From a virus: a DNA stretch of 31,632 nucleotides. The position numbers and the translations under genes are program-made. Position 1 is the first letter of the stretch, and every line of letters starts with the position of its first letter. Positions 4,524 through 28,974 of this stretch are shown in pieces. The stretch lies in IMG/VR virus record IMGVR_UViG_3300048584_000135, positions 1 through 31,632 of that record; one strand, given 5' to 3'. The notes under the pieces were generated by a model. That model had not been told where the DNA came from. It ran no database searches and saw only the letters and a list, made by a program, of their open reading frames with translations.

Positions 4524-4886
4524 TCAGCTGTTTGTCGAATTCAGCTCGGCGCGGGCGGCGACTTCCATGATCTGCAAGCCCTGCCAGGTTGCCTCGCTCA
4601 TGGCAGGAAACCGGGCGCGTACCGCCGCATAGTCCAGCCCCAGCCAATGCAGCCGCACGCTTGACATGGTTGCCATGCAGACGGCGTTCCATTGGGTGGC
4701 GACAGCCAGGAAAGCTACAACGATGTCCCAATTTTCCGGCCATACGATGAAGTCTTCCTCAACTGCCTCCTGACAGGCGGTCAGGATATCCTCAGACGCG
4801 CCCCAGAATTTCAGATCGTCGGCGAACTGATCATCCCCGACACTGGGCTGGCGCGCGCCAGCCCAGTGTCGGGCCGCCGCCTCTAG
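4524..4886 (-). CDS. T part of GT tail assembly chaperone (DUF1799-like), reached by -1 frameshift
   Basis: This frame has no usable start codon of its own. It is read only if ribosomes slip -1 at the end of the upstream G gene. It adds 120 residues after the slip, giving a GT fusion of about 232 residues. The block WPENWDIVVAFLAVATQW followed by LGLDYAAV is the signature of the DUF1799 family, which occupies the second chaperone position in Mu-like and lambda-like tails. The GT protein is expected to bind the tape measure and recruit tube subunits, as lambda gpGT does. The ATG at 4837 opens another frame that stops after seven codons, so it cannot start this protein. The tape measure starts 10 nt downstream. 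Confidence 0.88.
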   Translation of the reverse strand, partial: LEAAARHWAGARQPSVGDDQFADDLKFWGASEDILTACQEAVEEDFIVWPENWDIVVAFLAVATQWNAVCMATMSSVRLHWLGLDYAAVRARFPAMSEATWQGLQIMEVAARAELNSTNS

Positions 4887-4892
4887 TTTCCC
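4836..4892 (-). other. Programmed -1 frameshift signal: slippery GGGAAAC plus 38-nt perfect palindrome
   Basis: Read on the minus strand, the G gene ends G GGA AAC TAG, so the heptamer GGGAAAC (4886-4892) is in the X XXY YYZ phase needed for tandem -1 slippage, directly before the stop. Twelve nt downstream is a perfect inverted repeat at 4836-4873. Its arm on the plus strand is CCCGACACTGGGCTGGCGC, followed at once by its complement. In RNA this would form a stem of about 17 bp with a GCGC loop. The shifted frame is open for 120 codons and encodes a recognisable tail chaperone domain. Together these make a complete recoding cassette. A terminator role is unlikely because the tape measure must be transcribed through it and no U-run follows. 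Confidence 0.9.
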
Positions 4893-5221
4893 TTCCGGCC
4901 CCCTTTGCCGATGCTGTCGAAATAGGCGCGGATCAGCGCGATGCGCGCTGGCGGATCAAGGATCACCTGGTCGCGGACGTCGTCGTTATAGGCGATCGGG
5001 TTATTGCTATCGTCGACCAGCTCGAACAACTCCACGATCACGGCGCGCAAGAAGTCCGTGGTGCCTTCAGTCGCACTGAGGTTGTAGTTTTCCAGCTGGT
5101 CGGAGTTGAGCACGCGGAAGCGGGCCTTGAACCGCTCCTCGCGGGTGCCGCCGTCGACCGGCACATTGGCGGTGACCCGCGCCGTGAATTGGCGCTCGCT
5201 GTTCGATACCTTGAAACCCAT
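4883..5221 (-). CDS. Tail assembly chaperone G
   Basis: This encodes 112 residues starting ATG at 5221, with GGAG upstream. The sequence is acidic and charged (for example LRAVIVELFELVDDSNNPI and ILDPPARIALIRAYFDSIG) and ends GKGGRKGN. It lies between the tail tube and the tape measure, the conserved place of the lambda G / Mu gp41-type chaperone. The last codons form the slippery site, so most ribosomes should stop here to make G and a minority should continue as GT. I assign function mainly from position, the frameshift architecture and the DUF1799-like extension. The G portion alone has no motif I can name with certainty. Confidence 0.85.
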   Translation of the reverse strand: MGFKVSNSERQFTARVTANVPVDGGTREERFKARFRVLNSDQLENYNLSATEGTTDFLRAVIVELFELVDDSNNPIAYNDDVRDQVILDPPARIALIRAYFDSIGKGGRKGN

Positions 5222-9166: not shown

Positions 9167-9775
9167 TCAGGCTGCCTCCTCTTCAATGCCGAGCTCAGCA
9201 GCGCGGGCTTTCTTGAACGCGGCAGGATCGATGCCCATCAGCGCGATGACTGCGCGGTCGGCTTCGTCCAGGTCGGTGGTGGTGCGGGCCGGCTGACGGC
9301 CATGAAGCGACACTGCTTCGCTGGCGACCGCCGGCATGGCGGCGATCAGCTCTTCAGTACCCTTCGGATCCTTCTGGTGCATGGCGATGTACCGATCGCG
9401 CATCGGCTTCACGCCCACGCGCCCTTCGGCAATCGCGCCGTCCACGAAGGTCTGGGCAGCCTGCAGCGAGATATTGGCCTGCAGCGCGTTAAGCTGCTTG
9501 GTGGTCGCGACCAGCTCGGACTGCAGCGCGGTGATCGCGGCGTTCTCGGTGCCGCCATCGGCGCGCAGCGCGCCGATCTGGCTGACGATCGCATCGCTCG
9601 TCACTTCGCCCTGCAGCGCCAATGCGGTGGCAATGGGCTGCAGGGCAGCGTTGATGGCGTCCTCCACCACATCTTCGCCGCCGCCGCTCATCTTCTTGAC
9701 CGCGGCAAGGATCGCCTCCTCGCTCGCATCCTCGCCAAGGCCGAGCGCCGCGGCGATTGCTTTCATGAAGTCCAT
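9167..9775 (-). CDS. Z: Internal-start scaffold protein, Mu gpZ-like
   Basis: Inside the protease frame, the ATG at 9775 (residue 159, MDFMKAIAAALGLGED) is preceded by AGAGGA with 7 nt spacing, a better ribosome site than that of the full-length GTG start. It would give a separate 202-residue scaffold lacking the protease, as gene Z within I does in Mu. The product is helical and acidic: EEAILAAVKKM, then a long helix around ALQSELVATTKQLNALQAN. Translation from here would supply excess scaffold for procapsid assembly. This is an inference from the site and the Mu precedent. Confidence 0.7.
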   Translation of the reverse strand: MDFMKAIAAALGLGEDASEEAILAAVKKMSGGGEDVVEDAINAALQPIATALALQGEVTSDAIVSQIGALRADGGTENAAITALQSELVATTKQLNALQANISLQAAQTFVDGAIAEGRVGVKPMRDRYIAMHQKDPKGTEELIAAMPAVASEAVSLHGRQPARTTTDLDEADRAVIALMGIDPAAFKKARAAELGIEEEAA

Positions 9776-10249
9776 GCCATTTTCCTCTGCATGCAGGGCC
9801 TCAAGCCCCTTCAGGTTGGGTTGATTGACCAGGCTCGCGCGCCGGATGGCGACGATCTGCTTGTTCTTGGTGTGGGCGATCACCGGGCTGATGCCGCGGT
9901 AAGCTTTGTCCTCGCGCAGCTGGCGTCCGGTGCCGGTCCATTCGACCAGTCCCCAGATCCCGTCCTGGCGAGCTTCGAGCGCCACGATCCAGCCGCGTGC
10001 CGGGGCAGGCTGGCCCAGTGGGGCGGCAAGATCGGTGGAGTGGCACTCGTCCAGCACCAATCGCTCGCCGTCGGTCAGGCTTGCTGCGGTCAGCGCATCA
10101 TAGTCCTCCACGGTGTAGGGGCCGCGACCGTCCACAGTCTCGACGCGGCCGCCACCAGGCAGAAGGTGCAGCCATTCACGCCCGTCTTCGGGCATGCTGG
10201 CAGGCAGCTGGGAGGCGTTGCAAAGGGCGAGGGCGATCGACTTGGTCAC
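9167..10249 (-). CDS. I: Prohead protease-scaffold, Mu gpI-like
   Basis: This encodes 360 residues with a GTG start at 10249. The N-terminal about 155 residues are the prohead serine protease: HLLPGGGRVETVDGRGPY, then LDECHSTDLAAP (probable catalytic His70), PARGWIVALEARQDGIWG, and YRGISPVI with probable nucleophile Ser122. Then comes IRRASLVNQPNLKGL, the typical end of this domain. The remaining about 200 residues are helical scaffold (coiled segments, Ala/Glu-rich). In Mu the protease cleaves the scaffold during head maturation. The gene starts 31 bp after a GC-rich repeat that may mark its promoter, and a terminator separates it from gp31. Confidence 0.93.
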   Translation of the reverse strand: MTKSIALALCNASQLPASMPEDGREWLHLLPGGGRVETVDGRGPYTVEDYDALTAASLTDGERLVLDECHSTDLAAPLGQPAPARGWIVALEARQDGIWGLVEWTGTGRQLREDKAYRGISPVIAHTKNKQIVAIRRASLVNQPNLKGLEALHAEENGMDFMKAIAAALGLGEDASEEAILAAVKKMSGGGEDVVEDAINAALQPIATALALQGEVTSDAIVSQIGALRADGGTENAAITALQSELVATTKQLNALQANISLQAAQTFVDGAIAEGRVGVKPMRDRYIAMHQKDPKGTEELIAAMPAVASEAVSLHGRQPARTTTDLDEADRAVIALMGIDPAAFKKARAAELGIEEEAA

Positions 10250-10280
10250 CCAGCCTTAATGGCAGCACGCAAAGGGTGCT

Positions 10281-10303
10281 GGCATGCCCGCGGCGGCGGG
10301 CGG
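10281..10303 (-). promoter_or_regulatory. Copy 2 of 23-bp GC-rich hairpin repeat, PI-like position
   Basis: This 23-bp stretch is identical to 19160-19182. It contains GCCCGC, a 4-nt spacer GGCG and GCGGGC, so it is an inverted repeat. It lies exactly 31 bp upstream of the protease GTG, as the other copy lies 31 bp upstream of the lysozyme ATG. Mu has activator-dependent late promoters PI and Plys at these two gene junctions. A binding site for the Mor/C-type activator is the favoured reading. A processing or termination hairpin is the alternative. Confidence 0.55.
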
Positions 10304-10383
10304 CGTCAGATCATTTGGGGGAAATTGGGAGCGGCGATTCGTGCCCGATGTGCTTTGCCTGCCAAACTTCGCCCGATATGGAA

Positions 10384-10406
10384 AGGCCCGCCGAACCGGC
10401 GGGCCT
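10384..10406 (-). terminator. Rho-independent-like terminator after gp31
   Basis: Perfect 10-bp stem with 3-nt loop: AGGCCCGCCG (10384-10393), AAC, CGGCGGGCCT (10397-10406). On the minus strand the stem is followed by TTTCC. It lies 39 bp past the gp31 stop and about 80 bp before the promoter-like repeat of the protease gene. It would therefore close the lysozyme-to-gp31 transcript before the protease-capsid transcript begins. The 196-bp gap 10250-10445 holds no gene. Confidence 0.78.
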
Positions 10407-10445
10407 CGCATCGATCAGCACTCTGGCATGCACCTGCAGCACAGA

Positions 10446-10949
10446 TCAGCCTTCCTCGCCCAGCTGCTGGCCCGCGAATTCGTCAGCGATCTCGATGATC
10501 GCTTCAGCATCGTCCTTCGAGATCCCCAGCCACGGCCGCGCCGGGATCGTGCCCCATGGGATCGGGCGGCCGCGGCCATCGCGTCCGAAGGCGCCCTTGG
10601 TGGCGCCGCTCTGCATCACGCCCGCATAGATCAGCGAGCTGCCGATCACGACGCTGTCGCGAGTGACGATCCGCTGGATCTCGCGCCGAAGCCTGCCGAT
10701 CAGGTACAGGGTCTTGGTCAGCGACTGCCCGCCGTATCCGCGCGCGCGGTAGCGATCGAGCGTCGATTGCTTCTTAGGCGCCCACGCTTTTCCGTCCGGC
10801 CCCACGCCCTGGATGAAGCGCTGGCGCGTCGCATCGACCATGTATTCGGCGATGTCCTCGTAAAGAGGCGTGGCATCCTCCATACCGGCGATCGCGCGCT
10901 GCAGTGCCGCTCTGGTCTCACCGGCGTTGAATTGGACGTTGAATGCCAT
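10446..10949 (-). CDS. Virion morphogenesis protein, Mu gp31 (gpG)-like
   Basis: This encodes 167 residues starting MAFNVQFNAGETRAAL at 10949, with GGGAGAAG as ribosome site. The block PLYEDIAEYMVDATRQRF, then GPDGKAWAPKKQSTLDRY and GRLRREIQR, is the signature of the phage virion morphogenesis family (Mu gpG / P2 gpS type). That family works in head completion or tail-completion/neck assembly. The C-terminus IPARPWLGISKDDAEAIIEIADEF is also family-typical. An upstream in-frame ATG at 10979 lacks a ribosome site. The gene is 84 bp downstream of gp30 and is followed by a terminator. Confidence 0.9.
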   Translation of the reverse strand: MAFNVQFNAGETRAALQRAIAGMEDATPLYEDIAEYMVDATRQRFIQGVGPDGKAWAPKKQSTLDRYRARGYGGQSLTKTLYLIGRLRREIQRIVTRDSVVIGSSLIYAGVMQSGATKGAFGRDGRGRPIPWGTIPARPWLGISKDDAEAIIEIADEFAGQQLGEEG

Positions 10950-11033
10950 TATGCTTCTCCCGTCGATGGTATCTGCCACCGGGTTTCTGCTTCGGGTCGT
11001 TTTGGACGTCGGGTAAAGGCCATCGACCCTCTC

Positions 11034-12296
11034 TCAGCCCCTGTTGGGCCGCTTTACGAAGAACGATTTGAGGTAGAGCGAGCGCCGGCCGCTGCGAACC
11101 TCCCAGATCGCCTCGTACAGCACTCCGCCGATCGCCTTTCGCATGATGACGCGCTGCAGGTTGCCTAGCTTGGAGGCCTTGCCCAGCTCGATGACGTCAG
11201 GATTGCTCGCGATCGCGGGCAGCAGCGCAAAGTCCGAAGGCTCGATCGGGAACGGGTCATTGCTGCGCTTTCCATGCCGGTTAAAGATATGGGTCGAAAG
11301 CTCGGTATCGATCACATAGTCGAACCCGCTCACGTCCAAGCCGTCCTTCAGGCTAGCCAAGCGCGCCGCCTGATCTGTCCGCACAAGCCCGAGCGTGCGC
11401 ACGGGCGGCAGCGGGCGCCGGTTCTCGTCGCCGGCAGCACTCCCTTCCTCGACCCGCTGCGCATAGCGGCGCAAATCGTCGGCCGTGCTGGGCAAGCGGC
11501 GATACGCATCCGCCAGCTCATCGGCGCGGCCGGGCGGCAGCGCGGCCATGAACGCCTTGCTCACCTGTTGGTCCCACAGCCGGACCTTCCCGGCGATTGC
11601 GCTCACCTCGCCTGACACGCTCGCGCCCGGCGCATAATCCCAGCCGCGGCCGATCCCTTCGGGCGCGCCGGTCTTGGGATCGATGCTGTCCCAGCCATCG
11701 GGCAGCTTCTTGTCAGGCTTGCCGCCCATGCGCCGGGCTGCAGCATTCGAATTGGCCCCGACGACGTAGCAGCTGCAGCCCCAGTCCGAAGGTGGATAGA
11801 ACTTGTCCCAAAAGGAATGATCGGGCGGCAACATCAGCCCGTCCCAGCTGAGATGCTGCGGCCGCGGTTCCTGGCTGCCGCCGTGGCGATAGATCCACCA
11901 CTTGAAATTGCTGGCCCTCAGCTGCGCCAGCCGCCCGGCCGCGTAGGAGGTGTAGGAATTGGTTCGCAGGATCGTCTTCACCCGCCACGCTTCGCCCTGG
12001 ACGGTTCCCTGCCCGGTCCAGCCGGTCCAGCCATGTCGGCGGACGATCGCGTCAAAGTCCCGGCGGAACTCCTCGATCCCGCGCCCCTCGGCGATCGCCT
12101 TGTCGACCGCGGCGGCAAGATCGGTCAGCAGATCGGCCTTGGCAGCGCCCGCCACCATGAAACCACGATCATGCTCTTCGCGCAGCATGTCATCCCAGAA
12201 CTCGGTCGGGACGAGGTTGCCCAGCTTGCGGCGGAAGAATGCCACCTGCTCTGTGAATGGGCGACCGAACACGCCTGATACCGGATCGTCAGACAC
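11034..12296 (-). CDS. F: Head morphogenesis protein gp30 (SPP1 gp7/Mu F family) with C-terminal nuclease-like domain
   Basis: This encodes 420 residues; GTG start at 12296 with GGGAG upstream. Residues about 60-185 form the Phage_Mu_F minor head domain: VKTILRTNSYTSYAAGRLAQ, QEPRPQHLSWDGLMLPPDH, FYPPSDWGCSCYVVGAN. The first about 50 residues (FFRRKLGNLVPTEFWDDM) match Mu gp30. Residues about 305-420 form a separate C-terminal domain with HIFNRHGK (His336, Arg340, His341), a FALLPAIASNPDVIELGK block and a strand-rich end. This is the pattern of the phage Barnase-EndoU-ColicinE5-RelE-like (PBECR) nuclease domains found fused to head proteins. It may be injected with the DNA. Nuclease activity is inferred. 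Confidence 0.9.
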   Translation of the reverse strand: MSDDPVSGVFGRPFTEQVAFFRRKLGNLVPTEFWDDMLREEHDRGFMVAGAAKADLLTDLAAAVDKAIAEGRGIEEFRRDFDAIVRRHGWTGWTGQGTVQGEAWRVKTILRTNSYTSYAAGRLAQLRASNFKWWIYRHGGSQEPRPQHLSWDGLMLPPDHSFWDKFYPPSDWGCSCYVVGANSNAAARRMGGKPDKKLPDGWDSIDPKTGAPEGIGRGWDYAPGASVSGEVSAIAGKVRLWDQQVSKAFMAALPPGRADELADAYRRLPSTADDLRRYAQRVEEGSAAGDENRRPLPPVRTLGLVRTDQAARLASLKDGLDVSGFDYVIDTELSTHIFNRHGKRSNDPFPIEPSDFALLPAIASNPDVIELGKASKLGNLQRVIMRKAIGGVLYEAIWEVRSGRRSLYLKSFFVKRPNRG

Positions 12297-12424
12297 AGCC
12301 TCGCTCCCGAATGCCCCTCAGCGGCGATTTAAGAGGCCCTAAGAGGCCCCTCAATCGGTTTTTGGCTACCAGTGGGCCATTAAACGCTCCAGCGGCCGTT
12401 TCCGGGCCTTGTACGGCGGGCATG
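12297..12424. other. Intergenic gap between portal and gp30 genes
   Basis: This is a 128-bp gap, the largest inside the head module apart from the gp31-protease gap. It contains two tandem copies of AAGAGGCCC-type sequence (TTAAGAGGCCCTAAGAGGCC, 12330-12349) and GGGCCATTAAACGC. TAAGAGGCCC occurs again at 18484-18493 within the Rz gene, and ATTAAACGC recurs inverted near 31260. I see no gene, no clear promoter and no strong hairpin here. Confidence 0.5.
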
Positions 12425-13996
12425 TCAGGCGGCCGTTTCGTCTGCGATATCGCTGCGCCCGGCAGCCGTTGCTGCGGCCAGCCCGCCAGCCAGTGCGGCG
12501 GCGAGGCCGCTGGCATCGATCTCGCCATAGGCATTAGCCAGCATCTCGCGCAGTTCGGCCAGATCGCTGGCCTTCTCCAGCATGACAGCGATCGTTGCCG
12601 TCATCTCCGCGACCGATGCCTCGGCTTGGCTTGCCATCGCGGCCGCGATCTGCGCTGCCGGCGCGGCCGGGCGGCGCTGCGCCTGCTGTGGCGCTTCGAT
12701 CGCGATCTCGCCCGGGTTGGTCGCAATCGGTGCCGGAGCGGCGCTGGGCGGACGCAGTATATCCTCGCCTTGCTCGGGATCGCTGAGGCCGAACTTGCCC
12801 CGCACTTCTGCCTGACTGACCCGGAAGCCCAGCGGTACGAGCTTGGCAAGGCTCTCCGACAGCATCGTGAGGTCTTCCTGTTCGGGCCGCGCGATGACGA
12901 TGCGGGGGTATGCCTTGCCTGGGCCGAATTCGAGATCGCACCAGGGGCGCACCAGATCCCGGTTGAGCGCGGCCGCCAGCGCCTTGCAGTCAGCGCGCTC
13001 GATATCCTCGCGCACGTCGTTGTGGACGTTGGCCTGCCCCGAGCCGAGGCCGCCCGCCTGCGCATCGGTGGTGTTGGTCTGGCCCAGCACCGCCTTCGAG
13101 ATCTGGCGATCGAGCCAGTCCGACCGTTTTTCGTAGAGGTCCGATCCAGCGGTGACGTTCTTCGACTCGATGAACTCGATCTCCATGCCATCCGGCACAA
13201 TCGCCGCGCAGTCGCCCGCGATATTGGCCACGGCTCGGTAGAGGGTCGCCTTGTCATCCTCGGTCGCGCTCGAGCTGTATTTGCCGATGCGAACGGGCTG
13301 GCCATAGGTTTGGGTAAAGATCGCCCAGTCGCGCTGGGTATAGGCCTTGAACATCCACGCCCAGCTGGCGAGCCGTGCGAGGCCCGATCGCACCGGCAGG
13401 CCGGACTTCGCCCGGATGCCAAGCTGGATGAACTTGAAGGCGGGCAGTCGCTCATCGATGCCATTGCCCTCCGGCCCGCCGCGCAAGAGCGGTGTGACGC
13501 CGTCCTGATCGAAGCGGAAGAAGCGCGGATCGCGCCATTCGAGCCGATTGGGCCGATACTGGCCCTCGCTCACTTCCCAGATGATCTCGGTGAACGACAC
13601 GCCCTTGCCGATAGCGTCGAGGATATTGAAGGTCTCGTCCGCCAGCTCGTCCCGGCCCAGCCAGTCGCGCACCATGTCGGCGCGGCGCACATCCTCGGTG
13701 CTGTCGCTTGCCGGCTCCACACTGACATCGACCTGGCTGACGGCACGCTTGCGGGTGCCCAGCACGCCGACATAGTGAAGGTCGCGCTCCTCGATCTGCT
13801 CGGCCAGCTCGAAATAGGACAGCGGTTCGCCCTGATCGGCATCGCGAAGCAGGCGCGCGAGCCGGATCGGGGTCAGCCCGTCAGCCGGATAGCCGGAAAT
13901 GGGCTGGCGCACGCCGGCCAGCGTCGGTCCCGCCACCTCTCGGGTCAGGACCGCTTTCTTCAGGGGTTGCCCCCACTGGTCCACCAAGGTGCTCAT
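12425..13996 (-). CDS. Portal protein, Mu gp29-like (DUF935)
   Basis: This encodes 523 residues, matching Mu gp29 (about 512). It begins MSTLVDQWGQPLKKAVLTRE and contains LTPIRLARLLRDADQGEP and FELAEQIEERDLHYVGVLGTRKRAV. It also has the GKGVSFTEIIWEVSEGQY and QTYGQPVRIGKYSSSATEDD blocks and LGQTNTTDAQAGGLGSGQ, all characteristic of DUF935 portals. The portal forms the dodecameric DNA gate that docks the terminase. The C-terminal about 120 residues are Ala-rich and helical. The start overlaps the preceding small Cys gene (ATGA). A 590-codon open frame on the opposite strand here is only the antisense of this gene. Confidence 0.94.
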   Translation of the reverse strand: MSTLVDQWGQPLKKAVLTREVAGPTLAGVRQPISGYPADGLTPIRLARLLRDADQGEPLSYFELAEQIEERDLHYVGVLGTRKRAVSQVDVSVEPASDSTEDVRRADMVRDWLGRDELADETFNILDAIGKGVSFTEIIWEVSEGQYRPNRLEWRDPRFFRFDQDGVTPLLRGGPEGNGIDERLPAFKFIQLGIRAKSGLPVRSGLARLASWAWMFKAYTQRDWAIFTQTYGQPVRIGKYSSSATEDDKATLYRAVANIAGDCAAIVPDGMEIEFIESKNVTAGSDLYEKRSDWLDRQISKAVLGQTNTTDAQAGGLGSGQANVHNDVREDIERADCKALAAALNRDLVRPWCDLEFGPGKAYPRIVIARPEQEDLTMLSESLAKLVPLGFRVSQAEVRGKFGLSDPEQGEDILRPPSAAPAPIATNPGEIAIEAPQQAQRRPAAPAAQIAAAMASQAEASVAEMTATIAVMLEKASDLAELREMLANAYGEIDASGLAAALAGGLAAATAAGRSDIADETAA

Positions 13997-14202
13997 TGTT
14001 CTGTCGCCTCCTCAAGGTGCGCTGCGTGATCGCCGCACCAGCTATCAGTCCAGACCAGCGGCCAGACTGCGCGCGGGCGGTTGTCGTCGCCGAAGAATAC
14101 GACAGGGGCATGCCGCCGGCATTGGCCGCCGCTGCGGGGCCGGGCCTGCGCGTCGCTGGGCTGCAGGAACACACAGGTGCTGCATTGCGCTTTGCCGATC
14201 AC
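13993..14202 (-). CDS. Small four-cysteine protein between terminase and portal, unknown
   Basis: This encodes 69 residues with a GTG start at 14202. Cysteines occur as CSTC near the N-terminus (Cys7, Cys10), one Cys in GGQCRRHAP (Cys28) and one in DSWCGDHAAH (Cys56). The spacing and the aromatic context (APVVFFG..., AVWPLVWTDSWCGDH) suggest a small metal-binding or iron-sulfur-like fold. It overlaps both the terminase stop (GTGA) and the portal ATG (ATGA), so it is embedded in the packaging operon and likely co-translated. Mu has no gene here. I do not know its function. Confidence 0.75.
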   Translation of the reverse strand: MIGKAQCSTCVFLQPSDAQARPRSGGQCRRHAPVVFFGDDNRPRAVWPLVWTDSWCGDHAAHLEEATEQ

Positions 14203-15860
14203 CAGGCGTCTCCCGAACGAAGCCGCGCGCCCAGCGGCGCGCGAAACGGATCGCGGGCCAGCGCGGGATCATCTCCATCCGGATCATCAAATGATGAGCG
14301 GGACTGGCTGACCGGGACGTAGCCGTATTCGATCGCCCCCTGGCGGGATGCATACCAAGCCAGCATGCCGGCGATCGCGGTGTCGCCGTGACGGTCGAAA
14401 CCATCGCTGCCCTTGTAGCGCATGTCGTCCGGCACCTTCACGACGCCGCCGTCATAGGCCAGCGCCTGATGATCGCGCACCACGTCTTCATCGGAAGCGA
14501 TCCGCACGCTGCGCTCGCCAAAGGCCTCGACGTAGGGTGTACCGTTTTCGCGGTACCACTCGCGGCTGAGCTTGATCTCGGAGATCCGCTCGCCATACCG
14601 TTGGGCCGCGACTTCGGCGAGATAGGCACCATTGCCGGTCGCATCGAGCGCACCGTGCCCCAGACGCGGCACGGCATCACAGACGTAGAACAGGATATCG
14701 CGCTGCGCCTCGAATGGCACGTTGCGCATCTCCACCACCAGCCGCCAGCGGCGGACCAAATCCTGCCCCAGTTGCTGGATGACCAGATCGGACGCATCGC
14801 CGCTGCGGGCGAAGTCATGCCCGAAATCATGGCGGCGCTTGGGATCGAGCCTGTCGAGCAGCGGGCGCAGGTGCATCCGGCACCAGTCGGCAATCTGCCG
14901 CTGGCGGGAGCCCTTGTCCGCTGCCTTGAAGCTGTCGGGCAAGTGCAGTCGCACCACATCAACGGACCGGTCGGTTACCTGCTCGATCACCACCCGGGCC
15001 AGCGCCGCGCCTTCGGCATCGGCGGGCACCACGTCGAGCTCCTGGCTCATCGCTGAGGTGCGCGCACCATAGGCGCCGCGGATGCGCTGCTCCCATTCGC
15101 GCTCCGCCTCTTCCGACCAAGTGAGCCCGCGCATCAGGCAGACGCGCCGGTAGAGACCATTGGCGACCGCCGCGCCGAACGGGATATGGTGGATCTTGAA
15201 GGGCACCTTCCCGGCGCGGGCCTCGCGGATCAGTTCGTTGAACGGGTTGAGCACGCCGTTGTGGGTGGAGATCACGCGGATCTTGCCGCCCCAGATCAGC
15301 AGCGCGTTCACCGCGTCCAAGACGGCTCTCACATCCTTGTGAAACGCCGCTTCGTCGATCACGACGATGCCCTGAAGGCCGCGGATGTTCTCCGGCCGGG
15401 AGCTCAGCGCCTCGACCCGGTACCCGCTGGCAAAGGTGATCCGGTAGGCCGAGATATCACGGCTGCTGCCGTCCTCGCGCTCATCCTTGAACAGGAACTC
15501 CTCGATGGGCGCCAATTCGCCGGCAACGATGCGCGCGAAGTGGGCGACATAGCCGATGAACTCGCGCCCCTTGTCCTTGGTGTCGCCGATGTAGAACACA
15601 TTGTCGCCGCCGGCCGAACGCGCGGCAGCAGCGATCAGCGTGTCGTCCAGCGCCTCGGCAAAGGTGATGCCGGTGCGGCGACCCTTCTCACAAACCTTCA
15701 GATCGCTCTTGTCCTCCAGCCACTCGATCTGGTGGCGCATGAGGATGCCATCGGCGAGCGGATCGAGCTCAGCCGGGATCTCCGCGCCGCGTGTCAGCTC
15801 GGCCGGAAGGCGTTCCTCTTCACGCGCAAGAACGGGGGCATTCGGCTCGGATGCCGTCAC
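14199..15860 (-). CDS. Terminase large subunit, Mu gp28-like
   Basis: This encodes 553 residues, with a GTG start at 15860 overlapping the gp27 stop. The N-terminal ATPase has HQIEWLEDKSDLKVCEKGRR (degenerate Walker A around residues 57-66, CEKGRRTGIT) and GIVVIDEAAF at 164-173 (Walker B, Asp169/Glu170). VISTHNG at 196-202 is the coupling motif. The C-terminal RNase H-like nuclease has GHDFARSGDASDL (Asp349) and LDATGNGAYL (Asp406). It pumps DNA into the prohead and cuts it at headful, including host DNA flanking the Mu-type genome. It pairs with the gp27-like small-subunit-position protein upstream. Confidence 0.95.
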   Translation of the reverse strand: MTASEPNAPVLAREEERLPAELTRGAEIPAELDPLADGILMRHQIEWLEDKSDLKVCEKGRRTGITFAEALDDTLIAAAARSAGGDNVFYIGDTKDKGREFIGYVAHFARIVAGELAPIEEFLFKDEREDGSSRDISAYRITFASGYRVEALSSRPENIRGLQGIVVIDEAAFHKDVRAVLDAVNALLIWGGKIRVISTHNGVLNPFNELIREARAGKVPFKIHHIPFGAAVANGLYRRVCLMRGLTWSEEAEREWEQRIRGAYGARTSAMSQELDVVPADAEGAALARVVIEQVTDRSVDVVRLHLPDSFKAADKGSRQRQIADWCRMHLRPLLDRLDPKRRHDFGHDFARSGDASDLVIQQLGQDLVRRWRLVVEMRNVPFEAQRDILFYVCDAVPRLGHGALDATGNGAYLAEVAAQRYGERISEIKLSREWYRENGTPYVEAFGERSVRIASDEDVVRDHQALAYDGGVVKVPDDMRYKGSDGFDRHGDTAIAGMLAWYASRQGAIEYGYVPVSQSRSSFDDPDGDDPALARDPFRAPLGARLRSGDAW

Positions 15861-16462
15861 GTCGCCAGCCCTAGGACGCCCTTGCGGATCGCCTCGATGC
15901 GGTCGGCACCAAGGCCAGCTTCGGTGGCGATCTTCTCGACTGTGCGAACGGCATCCTCGCGCTTGCGGCTTTCCTCGGCCTCGCGACGTTGGATTTCCTC
16001 GCGCTCGTCCTTGCGCTCGGCGGCGAGTGTCTGCTGTTCGCGCCGGGCGATCGTGCTGAGACGGTTGAGGCTCTTCGACACATAATCGATGTCCAGCTGC
16101 TTGGGATCCTCGGCCCCCATCACCAGCTCGACGATGCGGTTCTTCAGCAGCTCGACCGTGGCGATGGTGGTGGAGCTGCGATCGTTGAGGTTGAACTGGC
16201 CGATGATCGTGTTGGTGATCTGCTGGCTCGCGAGCGCCTTTCGCAGCTCGATCGCCTTCCTCACCGAATACCGGCTGAAGGAACCCTTGCTGATCGGCTT
16301 GCAGCCATGGTCCGCGATCCGCGCGTTGAACTCGCGCAGGATCTCGGTCTGCGGCATGCGCCGTTCGTTCAGCTCAGCATTGGCCCAGGCGATATGCTCG
16401 TCGCAAACCTCGGGCAGGAGCTCGATCGAGGAGAGTTTTCCACGTCCGCTGCGCTTGGCCAT
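15857..16462 (-). CDS. gp27-like protein, DUF3486 (small terminase position)
   Basis: This encodes 201 residues starting MAKRSGRGKLSSIELLPEV at 16462, one base after the previous stop. The opening plus ELNERRMPQTEILREFNARI and KPISKGSFSRYSVRKAIEL match the DUF3486 family, which includes Mu gp27. The N-terminal part looks like a helix-turn-helix that could bind DNA. The C-terminus is a long charged coiled coil (AAERKDEREEIQRREAEESR). It lies directly before TerL, the small-terminase place, and probably recognises the pac end. In-frame codons upstream of 16462 overlap the preceding gene and lack a ribosome site. Confidence 0.88.
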   Translation of the reverse strand: MAKRSGRGKLSSIELLPEVCDEHIAWANAELNERRMPQTEILREFNARIADHGCKPISKGSFSRYSVRKAIELRKALASQQITNTIIGQFNLNDRSSTTIATVELLKNRIVELVMGAEDPKQLDIDYVSKSLNRLSTIARREQQTLAAERKDEREEIQRREAEESRKREDAVRTVEKIATEAGLGADRIEAIRKGVLGLAT

Positions 16463-16463
16463 G

Positions 16464-16769
16464 TCACGCGTCCCTCGGGCGGGCGACGCCCTCGATGATG
16501 ATCCGACGCTCGACATGATCGCGGCCGGTCGAGGTCAGCTCCGCGACCAGCAGCTCACCCGCTTCGATCAGGCGCACCGCGTCCAGCTCGGCCAGCGCGC
16601 GGATCTGGGTGCGCACCCAGTCACGCGATCGCCGCACGCCGATTACGTCGAGGACGTGGGTCATGGCCTGGTCATTGAGCCGTCCGTCAACCTGCTTGGC
16701 CAGCTCGTTGAGAATGGCGAGGCGCGCGTCGCGTGCAATCGCCGCACTGAGATCGGTTGTGAGGCTCAC
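16464..16769 (-). CDS. gp26-position winged-helix-like phage protein
   Basis: This encodes 101 residues; the GTG start at 16769 forms a GTGA overlap with the DUF2730 stop. It has the build of a small winged helix: AIARDARLAILNELAKQVDG, VLDVIGVRRSRDWVRTQIRAL, then strands LIEAGELLVAELTSTGRDHV. Proteins of this kind are common between the DUF2730 gene and gp27 in Mu-like phages (Mu gp26 position). I would expect DNA or protein binding linked to packaging or late regulation. The longer open frame upstream of 16769 overlaps two neighbours and is not the gene. Confidence 0.8.
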   Translation of the reverse strand: MSLTTDLSAAIARDARLAILNELAKQVDGRLNDQAMTHVLDVIGVRRSRDWVRTQIRALAELDAVRLIEAGELLVAELTSTGRDHVERRIIIEGVARPRDA

Positions 16770-17182
16770 TTCTCCATCCCCTTCGGAACAACGACGGACA
16801 TCATCAAATTGACGTTGCGGTCGATGTGCTCGACCGCCTTGGCCGTGGCGGCAGAGATCGCGGCGTGCTCGCCTTGCTTGTCGGCCAGGGCGCGGTGGCG
16901 CGTTTCTCCGTCGGCTTGTGCCTTGGAGAGCTTTTCGATCGCCTTTTCCAGTCGCTTGATATCGGCGGGGCTGGCGGTGTCCTTCTCGATGTTCTCGACC
17001 CGTTCGATTATCTCGCCAACCTTGGTCTTGACCGCCTTCATCTCGCCCGAAAGCTCGCCAATCTTTTTGTCTAGCCCGCCGGTGCCGACGGGGTTGCGCG
17101 CGCCGCCGCGCCAAGCGGCGATAGAAATGCCGATTACGATGAAGGCGATGATCAGAAGTTCGATGATGTTGCCGGGACTCAT
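16766..17182 (-). CDS. Membrane-anchored coiled-coil protein, DUF2730-like (gp25 position)
   Basis: This encodes 138 residues. One N-terminal membrane span (NIIELLIIAFIVIGISIAAW, about residues 5-24) is followed by a long coiled coil rich in Lys/Glu (KIGELSGEMKAVKTKVGEI, IKRLEKAIEKLSKAQ). This is the layout of the DUF2730 family that follows the lysis genes in Mu-like phages (Mu gp25). Its start overlaps the holin stop (ATGA). The protein probably sits in the inner membrane with the coil in the cytoplasm. A lysis-accessory role is suggested by position only. Confidence 0.82.
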   Translation of the reverse strand: MSPGNIIELLIIAFIVIGISIAAWRGGARNPVGTGGLDKKIGELSGEMKAVKTKVGEIIERVENIEKDTASPADIKRLEKAIEKLSKAQADGETRHRALADKQGEHAAISAATAKAVEHIDRNVNLMMSVVVPKGMEK

Positions 17183-17676
17183 GGGCCGTCGGGTCCTTCA
17201 TTTGGGTGGGTCGCATCGTGGCCACCAGCGATGTCTCGCTGGGGATCGATGCTGGCAGGTCCACTGATAGTGCTGGTCGCCCCGGCGAATGCGCGGCGCA
17301 CGAAGTCCTTCACCTGCTCGCCAAACAGTTCGAGCAGGGAGAAACCGGAAAAGCCGAGACCAATGGCCACGACGAAAGCGAACAGCCACCCGGGGCGGCT
17401 TTCGATGATCCAGAGCTGGACGACGACGAGCATGATGAAGCTGACCAGCAGGCGCAGCTTCCAACCCAGATCAGCCTCGGTCCGGACGGTAAAGGGCCGC
17501 GCCGCGGCGATGCCGACCGCGCCGAGGATGCAGGTCACCACCGGGATCGGCAGGCCCGCCAGATCCAGAAGGAAGCGATCACCCAACGGGGTCTCCACAT
17601 CAGGCACCACCACCGCCACCGCGAGCGTCGGCAGCCAGACGGCGGCGAACTTGGTGAAGGATAAAGGCTCACCCAT
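17179..17676 (-). CDS. Holin-like protein, four membrane segments
   Basis: This encodes 165 residues starting MGEPLSFTKFAAVWLP at 17676, 2 nt after the DksA/TraR-type gene stop. Four hydrophobic segments are visible: about residues 8-22 (FAAVWLPTLAVAVVV), 38-58 (LPIPVVTCILGAVGIAAA), 75-92 (LRLLVSFIMLVVVQLWII) and 97-118 (WLFAFVVAIGLGFSGFSLL). The tail is polar. The lysozyme in the same operon has no signal sequence, so a holin is required and this is the best candidate. Holins are poorly conserved, so the assignment rests on topology and on the neighbouring lysozyme and spanins. Confidence 0.75.
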   Translation of the reverse strand: MGEPLSFTKFAAVWLPTLAVAVVVPDVETPLGDRFLLDLAGLPIPVVTCILGAVGIAAARPFTVRTEADLGWKLRLLVSFIMLVVVQLWIIESRPGWLFAFVVAIGLGFSGFSLLELFGEQVKDFVRRAFAGATSTISGPASIDPQRDIAGGHDATHPNEGPDGP

Positions 17677-17678
17677 GA

Positions 17679-17891
17679 TCACCGGCCGCGCTCGATCTTG
17701 GTCTGGCAATCGACGCACCGCGTGGCCGAAGGCAGAGCCATCCGGCGGGCCTCTTCGATCTTATCGCCGCAGCTGAGGCAGAACTCCTCACCCAGCCCGA
17801 CCAGGTTTTTGCGGATGCGCTGCACTGCGGCGTCGCGCTGGAGCCGTTCGAACTCTTCAGCCCGCTCGATCGACCTTTCACCCAGATCCAT
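17679..17891 (-). CDS. DksA/TraR-family zinc-finger protein
   Basis: This encodes 70 residues starting ATG at 17891, a TGATG overlap with the Rz stop. A helical N-terminus (RSIERAEEFERLQRDAAVQR) is followed by four cysteines, CLSC (38, 41) and CVDC (59, 62), the zinc-finger of DksA/TraR proteins. TraR-like proteins bind RNA polymerase through the secondary channel and alter promoter choice without ppGpp. Small versions are common in the lysis region of Mu- and P2-like phages. Whether this one binds polymerase cannot be told from the sequence. Confidence 0.87.
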   Translation of the reverse strand: MDLGERSIERAEEFERLQRDAAVQRIRKNLVGLGEEFCLSCGDKIEEARRMALPSATRCVDCQTKIERGR

Positions 17892-18553
17892 CACCGGTTC
17901 CCTTCGGGCGTAAAGCGGACGGCGGATTGGCCGAAGACCCAGTCGATCAGGCGGTTATGGAGGTGCGCGTCTTCGCTGGCTTTCTGAGCCTCGTCGACGG
18001 TCAGGCAGACCAGGCCGGGCGGGCAAAGCGGCTGCGCGGTCAGCTCTCGGGCGGCAGGAAGGTCAGAATTCGGGGCCGCAGCAGCAACTCGGCCGGGGGC
18101 GTTGCCGGCGCCGGGCAGTCCAGCTGGGTCGGCACGGCCGGGATCGGTTCGGGCGGCGTCTCTCGCCCGCAGGCGGTCAAAGCGAGCGCGCAGATTGGCA
18201 TTGTCCACGCGCAGATCAGCAAGCGTCGCATCGGTGATCCTTTCCTGTTCGGCTTCGACGCGCGCGACGTTGGCCTTGGCCTGGCGCTGGGCCTCGTCGC
18301 TGGCGTCGATGTAGTTTGTGATGGTGCCGAGGTGCGCCAGCTGGGTGTCGGTGAGCAGCTGCTCGGTCTCGGCCAGATCTTCGCGCAGATCGGGAATGAC
18401 GATGATCGCCGCCCAGAGAAATGCCGGAACGAAGGCAGAAAGCAGGACGTTGCGAACATCGCTGAGCACCCACTTAAGCGCCGCTAAGAGGCCCTTTAGA
18501 ACGGCCTCAAGCCCGCCCGCGGCGAGCAATTTGAAGGCTGCCCAGCTGATCAC
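17891..18553 (-). CDS. Rz-like inner-membrane spanin (i-spanin)
   Basis: This encodes 220 residues with a GTG start at 18553 overlapping the lysozyme stop (GTGA). An N-terminal amphipathic/hydrophobic stretch is followed by a membrane span at about residues 36-56 (VLLSAFVPAFLWAAIIVIP). A long charged coil comes next (LREDLAETEQLLTDTQLAHL, RQAKANVARVEAEQERI, LRVDNANLRARFDRLRAR). This is the topology of i-spanins, which link to an outer-membrane lipoprotein and fuse the two membranes at lysis. The Rz1-like partner is encoded entirely inside this gene in another frame, which strongly supports the call. At 220 residues it is longer than lambda Rz (153). Confidence 0.85.
   Translation of the reverse strand: MISWAAFKLLAAGGLEAVLKGLLAALKWVLSDVRNVLLSAFVPAFLWAAIIVIPDLREDLAETEQLLTDTQLAHLGTITNYIDASDEAQRQAKANVARVEAEQERITDATLADLRVDNANLRARFDRLRARDAARTDPGRADPAGLPGAGNAPGRVAAAAPNSDLPAARELTAQPLCPPGLVCLTVDEAQKASEDAHLHNRLIDWVFGQSAVRFTPEGNR
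18040..18231 (-). CDS. Rz1-like outer-membrane lipoprotein (o-spanin), embedded in Rz
   Basis: This encodes 63 residues, ATG at 18231, lying wholly within the Rz gene in a shifted frame. GGAAAGGATCACCG precedes the ATG, a good ribosome site. The sequence has a basic start MRRLL, a hydrophobic segment and lipobox LTAC with lipidated Cys21. The mature part of 43 residues is proline-rich (PPEPIPAVPTQLDCPAPATPP). This is the classical Rz1 layout. Lambda Rz1 is likewise embedded in Rz. The extra ORF upstream of 18231 in the same frame is not coding. The pair completes the lysis module with lysozyme and holin. Confidence 0.9.
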   Translation of the reverse strand: MRRLLICAWTMPICALALTACGRETPPEPIPAVPTQLDCPAPATPPAELLLRPRILTFLPPES

Positions 18554-19128
18554 GCGGCACCTGGCACATTGCGGGCAAGCGCGGCGCGAACCTCATCTTT
18601 GATGTCGATCTGGCGCGCGCTCGACCAGCGAGGTGTGCCATTCTGGCGGACTTCCTCGTAAATCAGGACAACACCGTCACCGCTCCAGCGCCCGTCGAAG
18701 AACAGCGCGCGCTCGGCCTTGCGGCGATCGATCACCTCACGAGGGCGGGAGTAGTTCATGAACTCGGACCAGGCGCGGTTGGGATTGCCGGCGAGCACGG
18801 ACTTCACCCAGTCGGCCCGGCCGATGGCACCGGTGTTCCAGTGGAAGCTCAGCGCGGCGGCAAGCTGCGCCTCGGTCAGCTCGCGGCCTCGGAAGGCGCG
18901 TTCAACCTCTGGCAGATATTTCGTGCGCAGCAGCCATTCGTAGACCTCGACCGCGCGCTCAATGGTCGAGCGGTTTTTGCGATAGCGGCCGACCGAATGC
19001 CCACTGGCGTCGGTTACGCCGAAGCCCCAAGTCCACACGCCAACACTGTCGCGGTAAGCCTCCAGTACGAGGCCTTCATGCTCGGCGATTTCAAGCAGGG
19101 TGCGTTCGGTGAGGAGAGTGTCGGCCAT
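18550..19128 (-). CDS. Endolysin, T4-type lysozyme (GH24)
   Basis: This encodes 192 residues starting MADTLLTERTLLEIAEHEGL at 19128. The catalytic triad is Glu18, Asp27 and Thr33, in the same spacing as T4 lysozyme (11, 20, 26): EHEGLVLEAYRDSVGVWTWG. It cuts the MurNAc-GlcNAc bond of peptidoglycan. Later motifs include LSFHWNTGAIGRADWVKSVL and NYSRPREVIDRRKAERALF, typical of phage lysozymes. No signal or SAR segment is present, so a holin must release it. It is the first late gene, 60 bp after the Mor-like gene, with a promoter-like repeat 31 bp upstream. An in-frame ATG at 19164 falls inside that repeat. Confidence 0.94.
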   Translation of the reverse strand: MADTLLTERTLLEIAEHEGLVLEAYRDSVGVWTWGFGVTDASGHSVGRYRKNRSTIERAVEVYEWLLRTKYLPEVERAFRGRELTEAQLAAALSFHWNTGAIGRADWVKSVLAGNPNRAWSEFMNYSRPREVIDRRKAERALFFDGRWSGDGVVLIYEEVRQNGTPRWSSARQIDIKDEVRAALARNVPGAA

Positions 19129-19159
19129 GCATCCGCTATGGGCTGCGGAGCGCTCCGGC

Positions 19160-19182
19160 GGCATGCCCGCGGCGGCGGGCGG
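19160..19182 (-). promoter_or_regulatory. Copy 1 of 23-bp GC-rich hairpin repeat, Plys-like position
   Basis: Identical to 10281-10303. The inner inverted repeat is GCCCGC / GCGGGC around GGCG. It lies 31 bp before the lysozyme ATG and 6 bp beyond the end of the Mor/C-like gene. After the repeat both copies share a weakly similar element at the same distance (CCATAGCGG here, CCATTAAGG in the other). The position corresponds to the Mu late promoter Plys. No ordinary -35 is evident, which fits an activator-dependent promoter. A terminator for the early transcript is the alternative. Confidence 0.55.
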
Positions 19183-19188
19183 ATGCGC

Positions 19189-19563
19189 TCAGAAGAGGTC
19201 TAGCTGCTTGCTGCTATGCGCCCGATTGGGGCGTTCTGACAAGCCGGGTTCCCGAGCGAAGAGTTTTTCCACACCGGTCTCACCAATGCCAAGACGGCGC
19301 GCGATCTGCCGGTTGGAAAGGCCGCGCTCGCGGTAGAACAGCGCCCGATCGCGGCGGGCCAGCGGCACGCGGATGGTGGCAGGCGCCAACGCGCGGCTAA
19401 GTTTCTCGGCGATTTCGCGGCCAAGTGTCTCGACCAGCTCGCTGTCGTCGGCGAGCTTGTAGGGGACGTAGAGGCGGGTGCCGCCGAAGCTCTGCGCGAG
19501 CTTCACGAATCCTTCTCGGCCGAGGATAGATCGCAGCTCGCGCGTGAGATCGCCGACGATCAT
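19189..19563 (-). CDS. mor: Mor/C-type middle-late transcription activator
   Basis: This encodes 124 residues starting MIVGDLTRELRSILGREGF at 19563 (TAATG overlap with the zinc-ribbon gene). The body GGTRLYVPYKLADDSELVETLG, then IAEKLSRALAP and a C-terminal helix-turn-helix (RGLSNRQIARRLGIGETGVEKLF, about residues 80-102), is the Mor/C family pattern. In Mu, Mor turns on C and C turns on the late promoters. Here only one such gene is seen, placed directly before the lysis-head transcripts, so it may do both jobs. The longer open frame up to 19671 overlaps the zinc-ribbon gene and is not used. Confidence 0.9.
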   Translation of the reverse strand: MIVGDLTRELRSILGREGFVKLAQSFGGTRLYVPYKLADDSELVETLGREIAEKLSRALAPATIRVPLARRDRALFYRERGLSNRQIARRLGIGETGVEKLFAREPGLSERPNRAHSSKQLDLF

Positions 19564-20223: not shown

Positions 20224-20930
20224 GCCTCACCTCCCGCTGCGCGCAGCTTGTCGCCCAGCGCCTTGGCGAGGCGCTGGTAGGCTTCCGCATCCATCGGCCC
20301 TTCAGCGCCGGTTTTGATGCCGCACAGCCGGAAGGCGGCGTTGTCGATCGTCCAGTCGGCCGGGATCTCGCCCGCGCCCTTCAGCTTCCACAGGATCGCC
20401 CGGCACAGCCCTTCGTGCAGCGCGCGCGGCTGCAGGTTGTTACCGGCCTCGTCGGTCTGCGGCCAGCCATGGCGAACCGCCATCGCCTTCAGCGCCTCGA
20501 TCAGGCGGAACGCATCAGACTGCTTGGCCCAGACCAGGCGCTCGCACTTCAGCTGCCGCTTGGCGAAGGCTTCCAGCGCCTGTTCGGACGCGTTCTGCAC
20601 CGCATTGAGATGGTGGAGCGAGATCCACAGCGCCCGCGCCTTGCGCGCCATCGGATGCTGCGCCGGGCGGGTTGCAGGGTTGCTCGCCGGGTTCTTCGGC
20701 AGCGGCTTGAAACCCTGCGCCTCAAGCCGCTTCAGCGCGCGCTCCAGTTCGGCCTCGGTGCAATCGCCCGCGCTGCTGCGGCCGGTTTCTTCCAGCATGA
20801 TCTGCCGATAATCATCGTCGGCCAGGGCGAGCTGCTTCTTGGCGACGTGGATCTTCGCCAGCATCGCGCGGCGGCGGCGATCGGTGGGGTTGAACTGCGC
20901 GGGCGCGGCTTTGACAGCGGCAAGGGCCAT
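20220..20930 (-). CDS. gemA: GemA / gp16 family regulatory protein (DUF1018)
   Basis: This encodes 236 residues. The N-terminal RRRAMLAKIHVAKKQLALAD, DDYRQIMLEETGRSSAGDCT and LERALKRLEAQGFKP are the diagnostic GemA/gp16 pattern ('i.ia.k.lgldd..Yr..l....G..S...lt..El...l..L...Gf'). In Mu, GemA modulates host gene expression and DNA supercoiling. The C-terminal half (RKARALWISLHHLNAVQN, then ERLVWAKQSDAFRLIEALKA) extends the family domain. The gene starts at 20930 in TGATG overlap with a small membrane gene and lies in the usual place between B and mor. Confidence 0.92.
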   Translation of the reverse strand: MALAAVKAAPAQFNPTDRRRRAMLAKIHVAKKQLALADDDYRQIMLEETGRSSAGDCTEAELERALKRLEAQGFKPLPKNPASNPATRPAQHPMARKARALWISLHHLNAVQNASEQALEAFAKRQLKCERLVWAKQSDAFRLIEALKAMAVRHGWPQTDEAGNNLQPRALHEGLCRAILWKLKGAGEIPADWTIDNAAFRLCGIKTGAEGPMDAEAYQRLAKALGDKLRAAGGEA

Positions 20931-24973: not shown

Positions 24974-25235
24974 GGCCCTCACCTTCGTGGCCCCGGCGAT
25001 ATCGATCTGGTGCGAGGGTGTTCTCGTGCCTTTCCTTGGGCAAGATGGTGACGACGCGGTTTTCATCGAGCAGCACGCGCTGCCCGCCGCCAAGGCGGAC
25101 GTAACGGGCGCCGAAGGCGATGGCGGTTCGCACGGCGCGGCAATCAAGCGCCCGTCGGATTTCAACCAGAGGCACATCGGCCACCCGCTCGCGATAGCGC
25201 TGGATGGCATGCCCGGTTAGGAAGACCTCAGCCAT
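24960..25235 (-). CDS. 91-residue protein, unknown, YRERV motif
   Basis: Starts MAEVFLTGHAIQRYRERVAD at 25235. The block GHAIQRYRERV, then GARYVRLGGGQRVLLDENRV and VTILPKER, looks like a compact alpha-beta fold of the kind seen in small toxin-like or nuclease-like proteins (His, Arg and Glu in one helix, then strands). I cannot name a family. It overlaps the gene upstream by 8 bp and the gene downstream by 14 bp, typical of this operon. No antitoxin partner can be singled out. Confidence 0.75.
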   Translation of the reverse strand: MAEVFLTGHAIQRYRERVADVPLVEIRRALDCRAVRTAIAFGARYVRLGGGQRVLLDENRVVTILPKERHENTLAPDRYRRGHEGEGHAKG

Positions 25236-27834: not shown

Positions 27835-27970
27835 CGCGGTGCTCCCGCTTCGCGATGGCGATCGTGATCATCCACGGCCCCCAGACCATGCTGATCTCGC
27901 GGCCCTCATATTCGTTGTCTTCGTCGCACGTCAGCACGCCGCCGGTTTCGAAGCGCGGAAGCCAGCTCAT
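27824..27970 (-). CDS. 48-residue protein, unknown
   Basis: ATG at 27970 with ATGA overlap to the ParB-like gene stop; it ends inside the start of the methyltransferase gene (11-bp overlap). Sequence: MSWLPRFETGGVLTCDEDNE, then YEGREISMVWGPWMITIAIA and a charged end. One short hydrophobic stretch (MVWGPWMITIAIA) is too short to be a certain membrane span. Without this gene there would be a 132-bp hole in an otherwise gap-free operon. Confidence 0.66.
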   Translation of the reverse strand: MSWLPRFETGGVLTCDEDNEYEGREISMVWGPWMITIAIAKREHRDAW

Positions 27971-28974
27971 TCGCCCAGCTCCTCATTGAGCTGGTCGCGC
28001 AACGCCCGCTTCATCTCAGGGGTGAGCATCGAAGCGAGCTTCGGCACGAACTGACGCTTTTGGTCGAGGCTGAGGCGCGACCACGCGCCCTCGATCGCGT
28101 TGTAGTGCTTCTGGTGCGCCACTGGCGTCGCCAGCGGCACCGCAACACCCGCGCCTGCCGCGATTTTGGCATCCTCGACGCCGATCTCCGGATCGGCGAG
28201 CAGCGCCTCGATCACCTTGCGGCGGACGCCCTCGTCCTTCAGCTGGGTCACCACCTTCAGCTGTGCACCGTTCTCGCCCACCACCGGATGCTTCGCGAGC
28301 TGCTCGGCCAGATCGGGAAAAGGCTCGATCACAAGGCGATAAAGCGCCAGATCATTGTGGATCGTGCGCCGGGACATGCCCAACGCCTCGCCCACTGATT
28401 CCTCCCAGCTGTATGCTTGTGCAATCTTTGCACAAGCATCCTCGGTCTCATCCCTGAGAACAGCCTCAGCGGTCTCTTCGAAGTGCTTCACGCGGTCCCA
28501 GCGAGCCTTTGCGCCGCGCTGATACTGGTCGAGATCGCCGTGCGCGCGCGCGATCCGCTCCTGCGCCGCCGTCACCAGCGCAGCGGTAAACTTCGCCCGT
28601 TCGATCGGCCCTAGCGGGCGCCGGTGCAGGTTCTCCGATGCCTCCAGATCAGCAAGGTCTTCGGGCCTGCCCTTCACCTCGATCGCGAAGACCGGGATGC
28701 ATTCATAGGTCGCACCCATCAGGCGATGCATACCTGTCACGAGCAGCCACGGCGTCGCGCCATCGGCAACCACATCGGCGATCTCGCGCTTAGGGAAGCG
28801 GCGCGTTACCTTGATTGGATCGCGCTGCCCGTCGATGGCCATCAGCCGACCGAGCGCCGCCGCCTTGTCCTCGTGAAGGAAGCCGATCCGCTCGGGGATC
28901 ATGACGTCCGTCGGAGACAGCTCCAGCACTTGCGCCTGCGCCAGCACTTGGCGCTTCTCAGCCTGAGCGTTCAT
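27967..28974 (-). CDS. ParB/Srx-like protein (ParB N-terminal domain)
   Basis: This encodes 335 residues starting MNAQAEKRQVLAQAQVLELS at 28974. It shows the ParB N-terminal fold: IPERIGFLHEDKAAALGRLM, DPIKVTRRF, LLVTGMHRLMGATYECIPVF (the G-x-H-R-x2-A box) and LEASENLHRRPLGPIERAKF (the E-N-x-R-x-L box). A helix-turn-helix with ESVGEALGMSRRTIHNDLAL follows. Such phage proteins act in partition, transcription control or as ParB-type CTPases/nucleases. Early position beside ner suggests regulation or DNA processing during replicative transposition. The last about 100 residues are a separate helical region. Confidence 0.88.
   Translation of the reverse strand: MNAQAEKRQVLAQAQVLELSPTDVMIPERIGFLHEDKAAALGRLMAIDGQRDPIKVTRRFPKREIADVVADGATPWLLVTGMHRLMGATYECIPVFAIEVKGRPEDLADLEASENLHRRPLGPIERAKFTAALVTAAQERIARAHGDLDQYQRGAKARWDRVKHFEETAEAVLRDETEDACAKIAQAYSWEESVGEALGMSRRTIHNDLALYRLVIEPFPDLAEQLAKHPVVGENGAQLKVVTQLKDEGVRRKVIEALLADPEIGVEDAKIAAGAGVAVPLATPVAHQKHYNAIEGAWSRLSLDQKRQFVPKLASMLTPEMKRALRDQLNEELGE

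Follow-up and report, generated by a model that had tools for sequence, protein, structure and literature searches.

The 31,632-base virus record IMGVR_UViG_3300048584_000135, which was analysed over its whole length and is called the window here, carries two copies of a 23-bp repeat whose GC-rich core dyads are very likely the operators of two late promoters, Plys and PI, for a Mor/C-like activator encoded nearby. An earlier reading of the letters by themselves (the sequence-only reading) had proposed a GC-rich late promoter or activator site for a Mor/C-like protein, and comparison with related phages supports that proposal because of the place of the dyad after the activator gene, the paired copies before lysin and capsid genes, the spacing to a -10-like element, and the covariation of the dyad with the activator's recognition helix. 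We assign a probability of about 0.88 to the full model, in which the activator would act from operators at Plys and PI, transcripts would start at the start codons of lys and I, and both late mRNAs would be leaderless. The named genes lie on the - strand, in the order activator, lys, terminase, portal, F-like, G-like, I protease and major head, followed by tail genes as far as a tape-measure frame that is still open where the contig ends. The features on which the argument turns are these:

19189..19563, - strand: Mor/C-like activator gene, 124 amino acids, predicted to bind both sites (match to phrog_836, late transcriptional activator, at 3.2e-19)
19160..19182, - strand: 23-bp repeat, lys copy (predicted activator site, Plys), core dyad 19165-19180, from the exact repeat and relatives
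19135..19140, - strand: CATAGC, the -10-like hexamer of Plys, at 32-37 nt from the centre of the dyad
18550..19128, - strand: lys, endolysin / Phage_lysozyme, first gene of the predicted Plys transcript, with its ATG at the predicted transcript start
10281..10303, - strand: 23-bp repeat, I copy (predicted activator site, PI), core dyad 10286-10301, from the exact repeat and relatives
10256..10261, - strand: CATTAA, the -10-like hexamer of PI, with TGC in front of it (extended -10 at 10262-10264)
9167..10249, - strand: I, Mu-like head maturation protease, which opens the predicted PI transcript, with its GTG at the predicted transcript start

The repeat, GGCATGCCCGCGGCGGCGGGCGG, is exact at 10281-10303 and 19160-19182 and reads CCGCCCGCCGCCGCGGGCATGCC in the coding sense (- strand). 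A scan of the 31632 bases with up to 3 mismatches returned no other copy, and 100 shuffles of the window gave no match to it. Its core is the 16-bp dyad GCCCG-N6-CGGGC, centred 44.5 nt upstream of both the lys ATG and the I GTG, and on the - strand the repeat ends 31 nt before each start codon (19128 for lys, 10249 for I). The lys copy lies 7-8 nt from the end of the activator gene. The sequence-only reading had claimed that the repeat is confined to these two places, that both copies precede the start codons of lys and I by 31 bp, and that a CCAT(A/T)NNGG element follows at equal distance in each; all of this was borne out, the gene identities were confirmed, and CATAGC and CATTAA mark the last element. 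It missed that the 31-bp distance would imply leaderless mRNAs.

The arrangement recurs in relatives from many alphaproteobacterial hosts, where one dyad directly follows the activator gene and a second precedes the capsid module 7.4-9.9 kb further on. The exact 23-mer is present in two other IMG/VR contigs, and the nearest relatives preserve the arms and vary in the centre, as in GCCCGACACCGCGGGC before lys (L086) and GCCCGACTTCGCGGGC before I (L088). Among 52 distinct activators of the window's type, 37 are followed by the exact GCCCG-N6-CGGGC no more than 90 nt after the stop codon; of the remaining 15, several show a one-arm variant or a different palindrome. A test that assumes no motif required only that the activator be followed by a perfect 5-N6-5 dyad and, 4.5-11.5 kb further downstream, by a perfect second copy; activators with less than 7 kb downstream were left out. 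It was satisfied by 29 of 62 distinct activators and, among random windows taken from these loci, by 17 of 680. When 25 window-type records were searched whole, GCCCGNNNNNNCGGGCAT was found at one place in 2, at two in 18 and at three in 5; the reversed control pattern had no match in these 25 records.

For the geometry and LEADERLESSNESS analysis, promoters were aligned on the dyad centre. The window-type sites used here and in the Shine-Dalgarno (SD) counts were collected by the dyad pattern, so that their surroundings, and not their presence, are the evidence. Duplicates by activator or promoter sequence, sites less than 420 nt from a contig end and open frames of less than 100 codons were dropped before counting; L188, L200-L205 (weak matches from Actinobacteria) and L148, a locus cut by its contig, were left out altogether, and one of the 37 second sites (L141, 15989), which looks like a chance coding match, is still counted. 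An A stands at offset 33 from the dyad centre in 39/51 window-type first sites, 34/37 second sites, 15/15 first sites of a clade described below (the CCGGA clade) and 6/12 of that clade's second sites, as would be expected of the second base in a -10 hexamer that spans offsets 32-37. TG at offsets 29-30, as in an extended -10, is found in 19/37 second sites and likewise at PI. The distance from dyad to hexamer matches the Mor/C-type layout, in which the site is centred about 43-47 bp before the start and a -10 stands without a -35, and no sigma-70-like promoter was found between 9000 and 20000. With the hexamer at offsets 32-37, the predicted transcript start would therefore fall at about offset 44, at the start codon. 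A start codon does lie 42-48 nt from the dyad centre in 36/37 window-type second sites and 15/15 CCGGA first sites.

Translation signals follow the same division. An SD duplex of -5 or lower is present at 3/66 starts lying 42-48 nt from the dyad centre, versus 25/30 and 11/12 of the first ATGs situated further down from the same kinds of promoter, so that a ribosome site appears only where a leader could hold one. The lys and I genes have weak SD sequences (-3.3 and -2.7); the control was a set of 24 internal window starts hand-picked from the open reading frame list (Mann-Whitney p 1.5e-4). Because the predicted transcript start coincides with the start codon and SD duplexes are rare at such close starts, the late mRNAs of lys and I are likely to be leaderless.

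The homology of the window activator to Mor and C rests on the phrog_836 match, on profile comparison and on Pfam matches within its family. Aligned with hhalign, the activator family profile matches Mu Mor at E 6.2e-7 (probability 92) and Mu C at E 5.5e-5 (probability 66); a GG..YIP motif is common to the family, Mor and C, and a Q..LF tail is shared with C. The Pfam Mor model matches 35/47 family members at E <= 0.01. The structure model of the activator has a mean predicted local distance difference test score (pLDDT) of 81.8, and the Foldseek and VIA-align matches listed are helix-turn-helix domains. Neither a second phrog_836 protein nor any other Mor/C-like gene was found among the window proteins scanned, a subset of the open reading frames, and for this reason one activator may stand in place of the two-step Mor-then-C cascade of Mu. 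A protein identical to the window activator is encoded in Erythrobacter ramosus JCM 10282 (L175), which points to Erythrobacter as the phage host.

The association of the dyad with the activator is clearest in the CCGGA clade, whose phages have lysins like that of the window, other head genes, and the dyad CCGGAAC..GTTCCGG or CCGGACA..TGTCCGG before lys and a second gene (named in L156 only, as an HK97-type capsid gene). In all 16 phages of this clade the half-site AAC is paired with an R-G-V-R-K-R recognition helix, and the half-site ACA with an R-[TS]-[VI]-R-R-R helix; the AAC labels came from a hand list that agrees with the printed sites. The second site is in view in 14/16 of these phages and is of the same type as the first. 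Two loci, L159 (= L085) and L165 (= L081), have nearly the same N-terminal part of the activator and differ in both helix and sites, and a tree of the N-terminal parts contains 5 changes of site type. Within the window-type family, G (or A) is found at the second arm base with the helices VNSLF, VNGLF, INSLF and VAKLF (L131, L133, L138, L176), and C is retained there with VSKLF and VGKLL; a recognition-helix code inside this family is suggestive only. The window-type helix table has wrong dyads or helices in rows such as L095, L113, L117, L177 and L190, and no count rests on it.

These observations point to a mechanism in which a Mor/C-like dimer, made from a gene directly upstream of Plys, would bind GCCCG-N6-CGGGC about 44 bp before the transcript start. 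The bound activator would recruit host RNA polymerase to a poor promoter with only a -10-like element (TG-extended at PI), and transcription would begin at the lys and I start codons or no more than about 3 nt from them. Both late mRNAs would then be leaderless and would be translated without an SD sequence.

Several observations weigh against this model. The window activator itself scores 22.3 with the Pfam Mor model, below the cut-off of 24.9, and neither Mor nor C is among the Foldseek and VIA-align matches listed. That comparison was made with a monomer model, whereas Mor in its solved structure is an intertwined dimer; the sequence profile reaches 1rr7 at only E 0.024. One half is altered in three CCGGA-clade sites (L158, L163 and L171), and the link between helix and site is looser within the window-type family. 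Because the switch of helix and site has just one independent pair on well-supported (starred) branches, the covariation in the CCGGA clade is a strong pattern and not a formal test, and we claim no significance for it. The -10 hexamer does not end in T. Finally, a start codon lies at 42-48 nt in only 15/51 window-type first sites and in 0/12 CCGGA second sites; the window-type first sites that have no close start and the CCGGA second sites look leadered.

The nearest competing explanation accepts Mor/C-type activator sites and supposes ordinary transcripts that start further upstream and carry a short leader. The Mu lys transcript has just such a leader, of about 23 nt, with a C site TTAT-N11-ATAA centred near -47, both derived from the oligonucleotide design in PMC4461284. 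Were the start some 20 nt further up, however, the dyad would be centred near -24, where it would fall within the footprint of the polymerase, and the -10-like A at 33 nt is present in most sites of the leaderless sets and in half of the leadered CCGGA set. The SD sequence is also missing precisely where the start codon is close to the dyad, and we regard leadered transcripts at Plys and PI as improbable.

Explanations that dispense with activator binding fare worse. The repeats could act as RNA hairpins, in the manner of terminators or attenuators, since the core can form a 6-bp GC hairpin and transcripts reading through from the activator gene into lys would cross one of the copies; yet no T-run follows the repeat, the spacing from dyad to start is fixed, and the dyad changes with the recognition helix, which makes such a role very unlikely. 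We give equally little credence to the dyads being sites of another phage DNA-binding protein, for instance a parS-like target of the ParB-like protein encoded at 27967-28989 (phrog_3264). ParB sites are palindromes, and a ParB-like gene is present, but tblastn with the window ParB gave no match in 22 of the 41 window-type dyad loci where MuA is in view, although a divergent ParB could escape such a search; moreover, the covariation is with the Mor-like helix, and the sites are positioned as promoters are. ParB was judged unlikely as the dyad binder on the count of loci that lack a match.

The predicted activator operators at Plys and PI resemble the Mu late promoters in several respects: the Mor/C-family activator gene stands directly before lys, the sites precede lys and I as Mor/C-dependent promoters do, and the promoter is poor, with no good -35. 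Unlike the TTAT-N11-ATAA of the Mu late promoters, the window dyad is GC-rich and 16 bp long (up to 22 bp); its centre is 44.5 nt from the lys ATG as against 70 in Mu, and no leader or SD sequence is predicted, in contrast to Mu. The Mor site of the Mu middle promoter Pm is a 16-bp dyad centred at -43.5, according to PMC4287176. The window dyads, of the same length and centred at -44.5 from the start codon, thus appear closer in spacing to Pm than to the Mu late promoters, a likeness that the sequence-only reading missed. Unlike Pm, they would drive late genes, and one activator seems to serve as both Mor and C. Leaderless mRNAs are familiar from phage lambda, whose cI mRNA is leaderless, and are fairly common in the alphaproteobacterium Zymomonas mobilis, which belongs, like Erythrobacter, to the Sphingomonadales. 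PMC7566282 gives 119 mapped leaderless pairs of transcription start site and gene in Zymomonas mobilis, and these share with the window genes a start at the start codon and the lack of an SD sequence (for the window genes, both as predicted). The window case would differ from these mRNAs in that it is predicted for activator-driven structural and lysis genes, is conserved across a phage family, and has leadered counterparts as an internal control. In the literature searched, which did not reach subscription papers such as the RcapMu description, neither such sites nor leaderless late mRNAs were described for Mu-like phages.

A hairpin stands before one of the two promoters:

10383..10407, - strand: hairpin resembling a terminator, between gene G and PI (-24.7 kcal/mol, z -3.4, followed by just three U)

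This hairpin is not listed by a terminator consensus scan. It precedes the I copy, which is second in transcription order and first by coordinate; the earlier claim of a terminator just upstream of the second copy therefore stands in the sense of transcription order and fails by coordinate. There is no terminator before the lys copy, where the activator stop codon is so near. An intrinsic terminator was rejected as a conserved part of the arrangement, being kept before only 2/37 second sites of relatives, both of them the closest kin.

The genes that follow the sites vary more than the sites do. After site 1 come lysins of unrelated families (phage lysozyme, GH108, chitinase-like, tail-lysozyme-like). 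L118 and L120 have the same promoter as far as the ATG and different genes from there on, L120 having a GH108 lysin and the L118 record carrying a lys relative; L091 and L092 repeat this pattern. After site 2, the I protease of the window has a relative by tblastn in 6/20 further loci tested, and in other window-type loci the gene is an open frame, mostly of similar length. A third dyad is present in eight Rhizobium-type records before one gene family, with the ATG 44-46 nt from its centre:

L210 12294, L211 13568, L212 11906, L213 12320, L214 12716, L215 12420, L216 11937, L217 12407: third dyad copies (oriented along the genes), before the baseplate wedge gene

The gene is a baseplate wedge (phrog_180) in the two members scanned, and 7 other records had neither a match to it nor a third site in the stretch read. 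A third copy before tail or baseplate genes, for which the sequence-only reading had proposed a search, is thus present in these eight relatives and missing from two 38-39-kb relatives of the window phage, which have two sites only and no PP- or mom-like copy. The further sites of a Mu-type late regulon, before tail gene P and mom, are accordingly missing from those two relatives; the window ends in the tape-measure gene. More distant activators (L147, L149 and L151 after the stop codon; Rhizobium phage RR1-B, L207, after 11532) are followed by other palindromes (CCTGAATTA.TTCAGG; ACCGGAACCGAGTTCCGGT), and the activator-then-palindrome arrangement may extend to other Mor/C branches.

Some features of the window lie apart from the late promoters. 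The F-like minor head protein of Mu type (11037-12296, - strand) has a C-terminal PBECR3 nuclease-like domain (PF18812, residues 318-417). At 4836-4900 on the - strand, a slippery-type heptamer, G GGA AAC, immediately precedes the TAG stop of the 4883-5221 open reading frame (tape-measure-like, phrog_569) and is followed by a perfect 38-bp palindrome, with the -1 frame open beyond; the hairpin is kept in L218 with a paired change and partly shortened in L219, and the element looks like a tail-assembly-chaperone frameshift signal. A 172-nt stretch is doubled at the contig end inside the open tape-measure frame (1-172 and 235-406, 95% alike), possibly as real repeats or through assembly, and a 25-nt inverted repeat (96% alike) lies within the early genes at 20472-20496 and 25107-25131.

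In sum, the window would hold the classic late switch of Mu in a GC-rich form from the Alphaproteobacteria. We put at about even odds a wider picture for the transposable phages of Alphaproteobacteria, in which one activator, its recognition helix changing in step with the operator, would run the lysis, capsid and, in some, baseplate genes. The choice between CCGGAAC and CCGGACA would lie with two helix residues (G and K, or T/S and R) and would give each lineage a private late switch; with the transcript start fused to the start codon, lysin and capsid cassettes would be exchangeable from the ATG and translated from leaderless messages. Near-identical activators that differ mainly in the recognition helix, with matching operators twice per genome, amount to a natural experiment through which the DNA-reading code of the Mor/C family could be approached with two substitutions. 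The predicted leaderless late phage mRNAs would come from an activated promoter for which leadered versions of a like promoter serve as a control, and they would bear on the translation of leaderless messages late in infection, when output is high.

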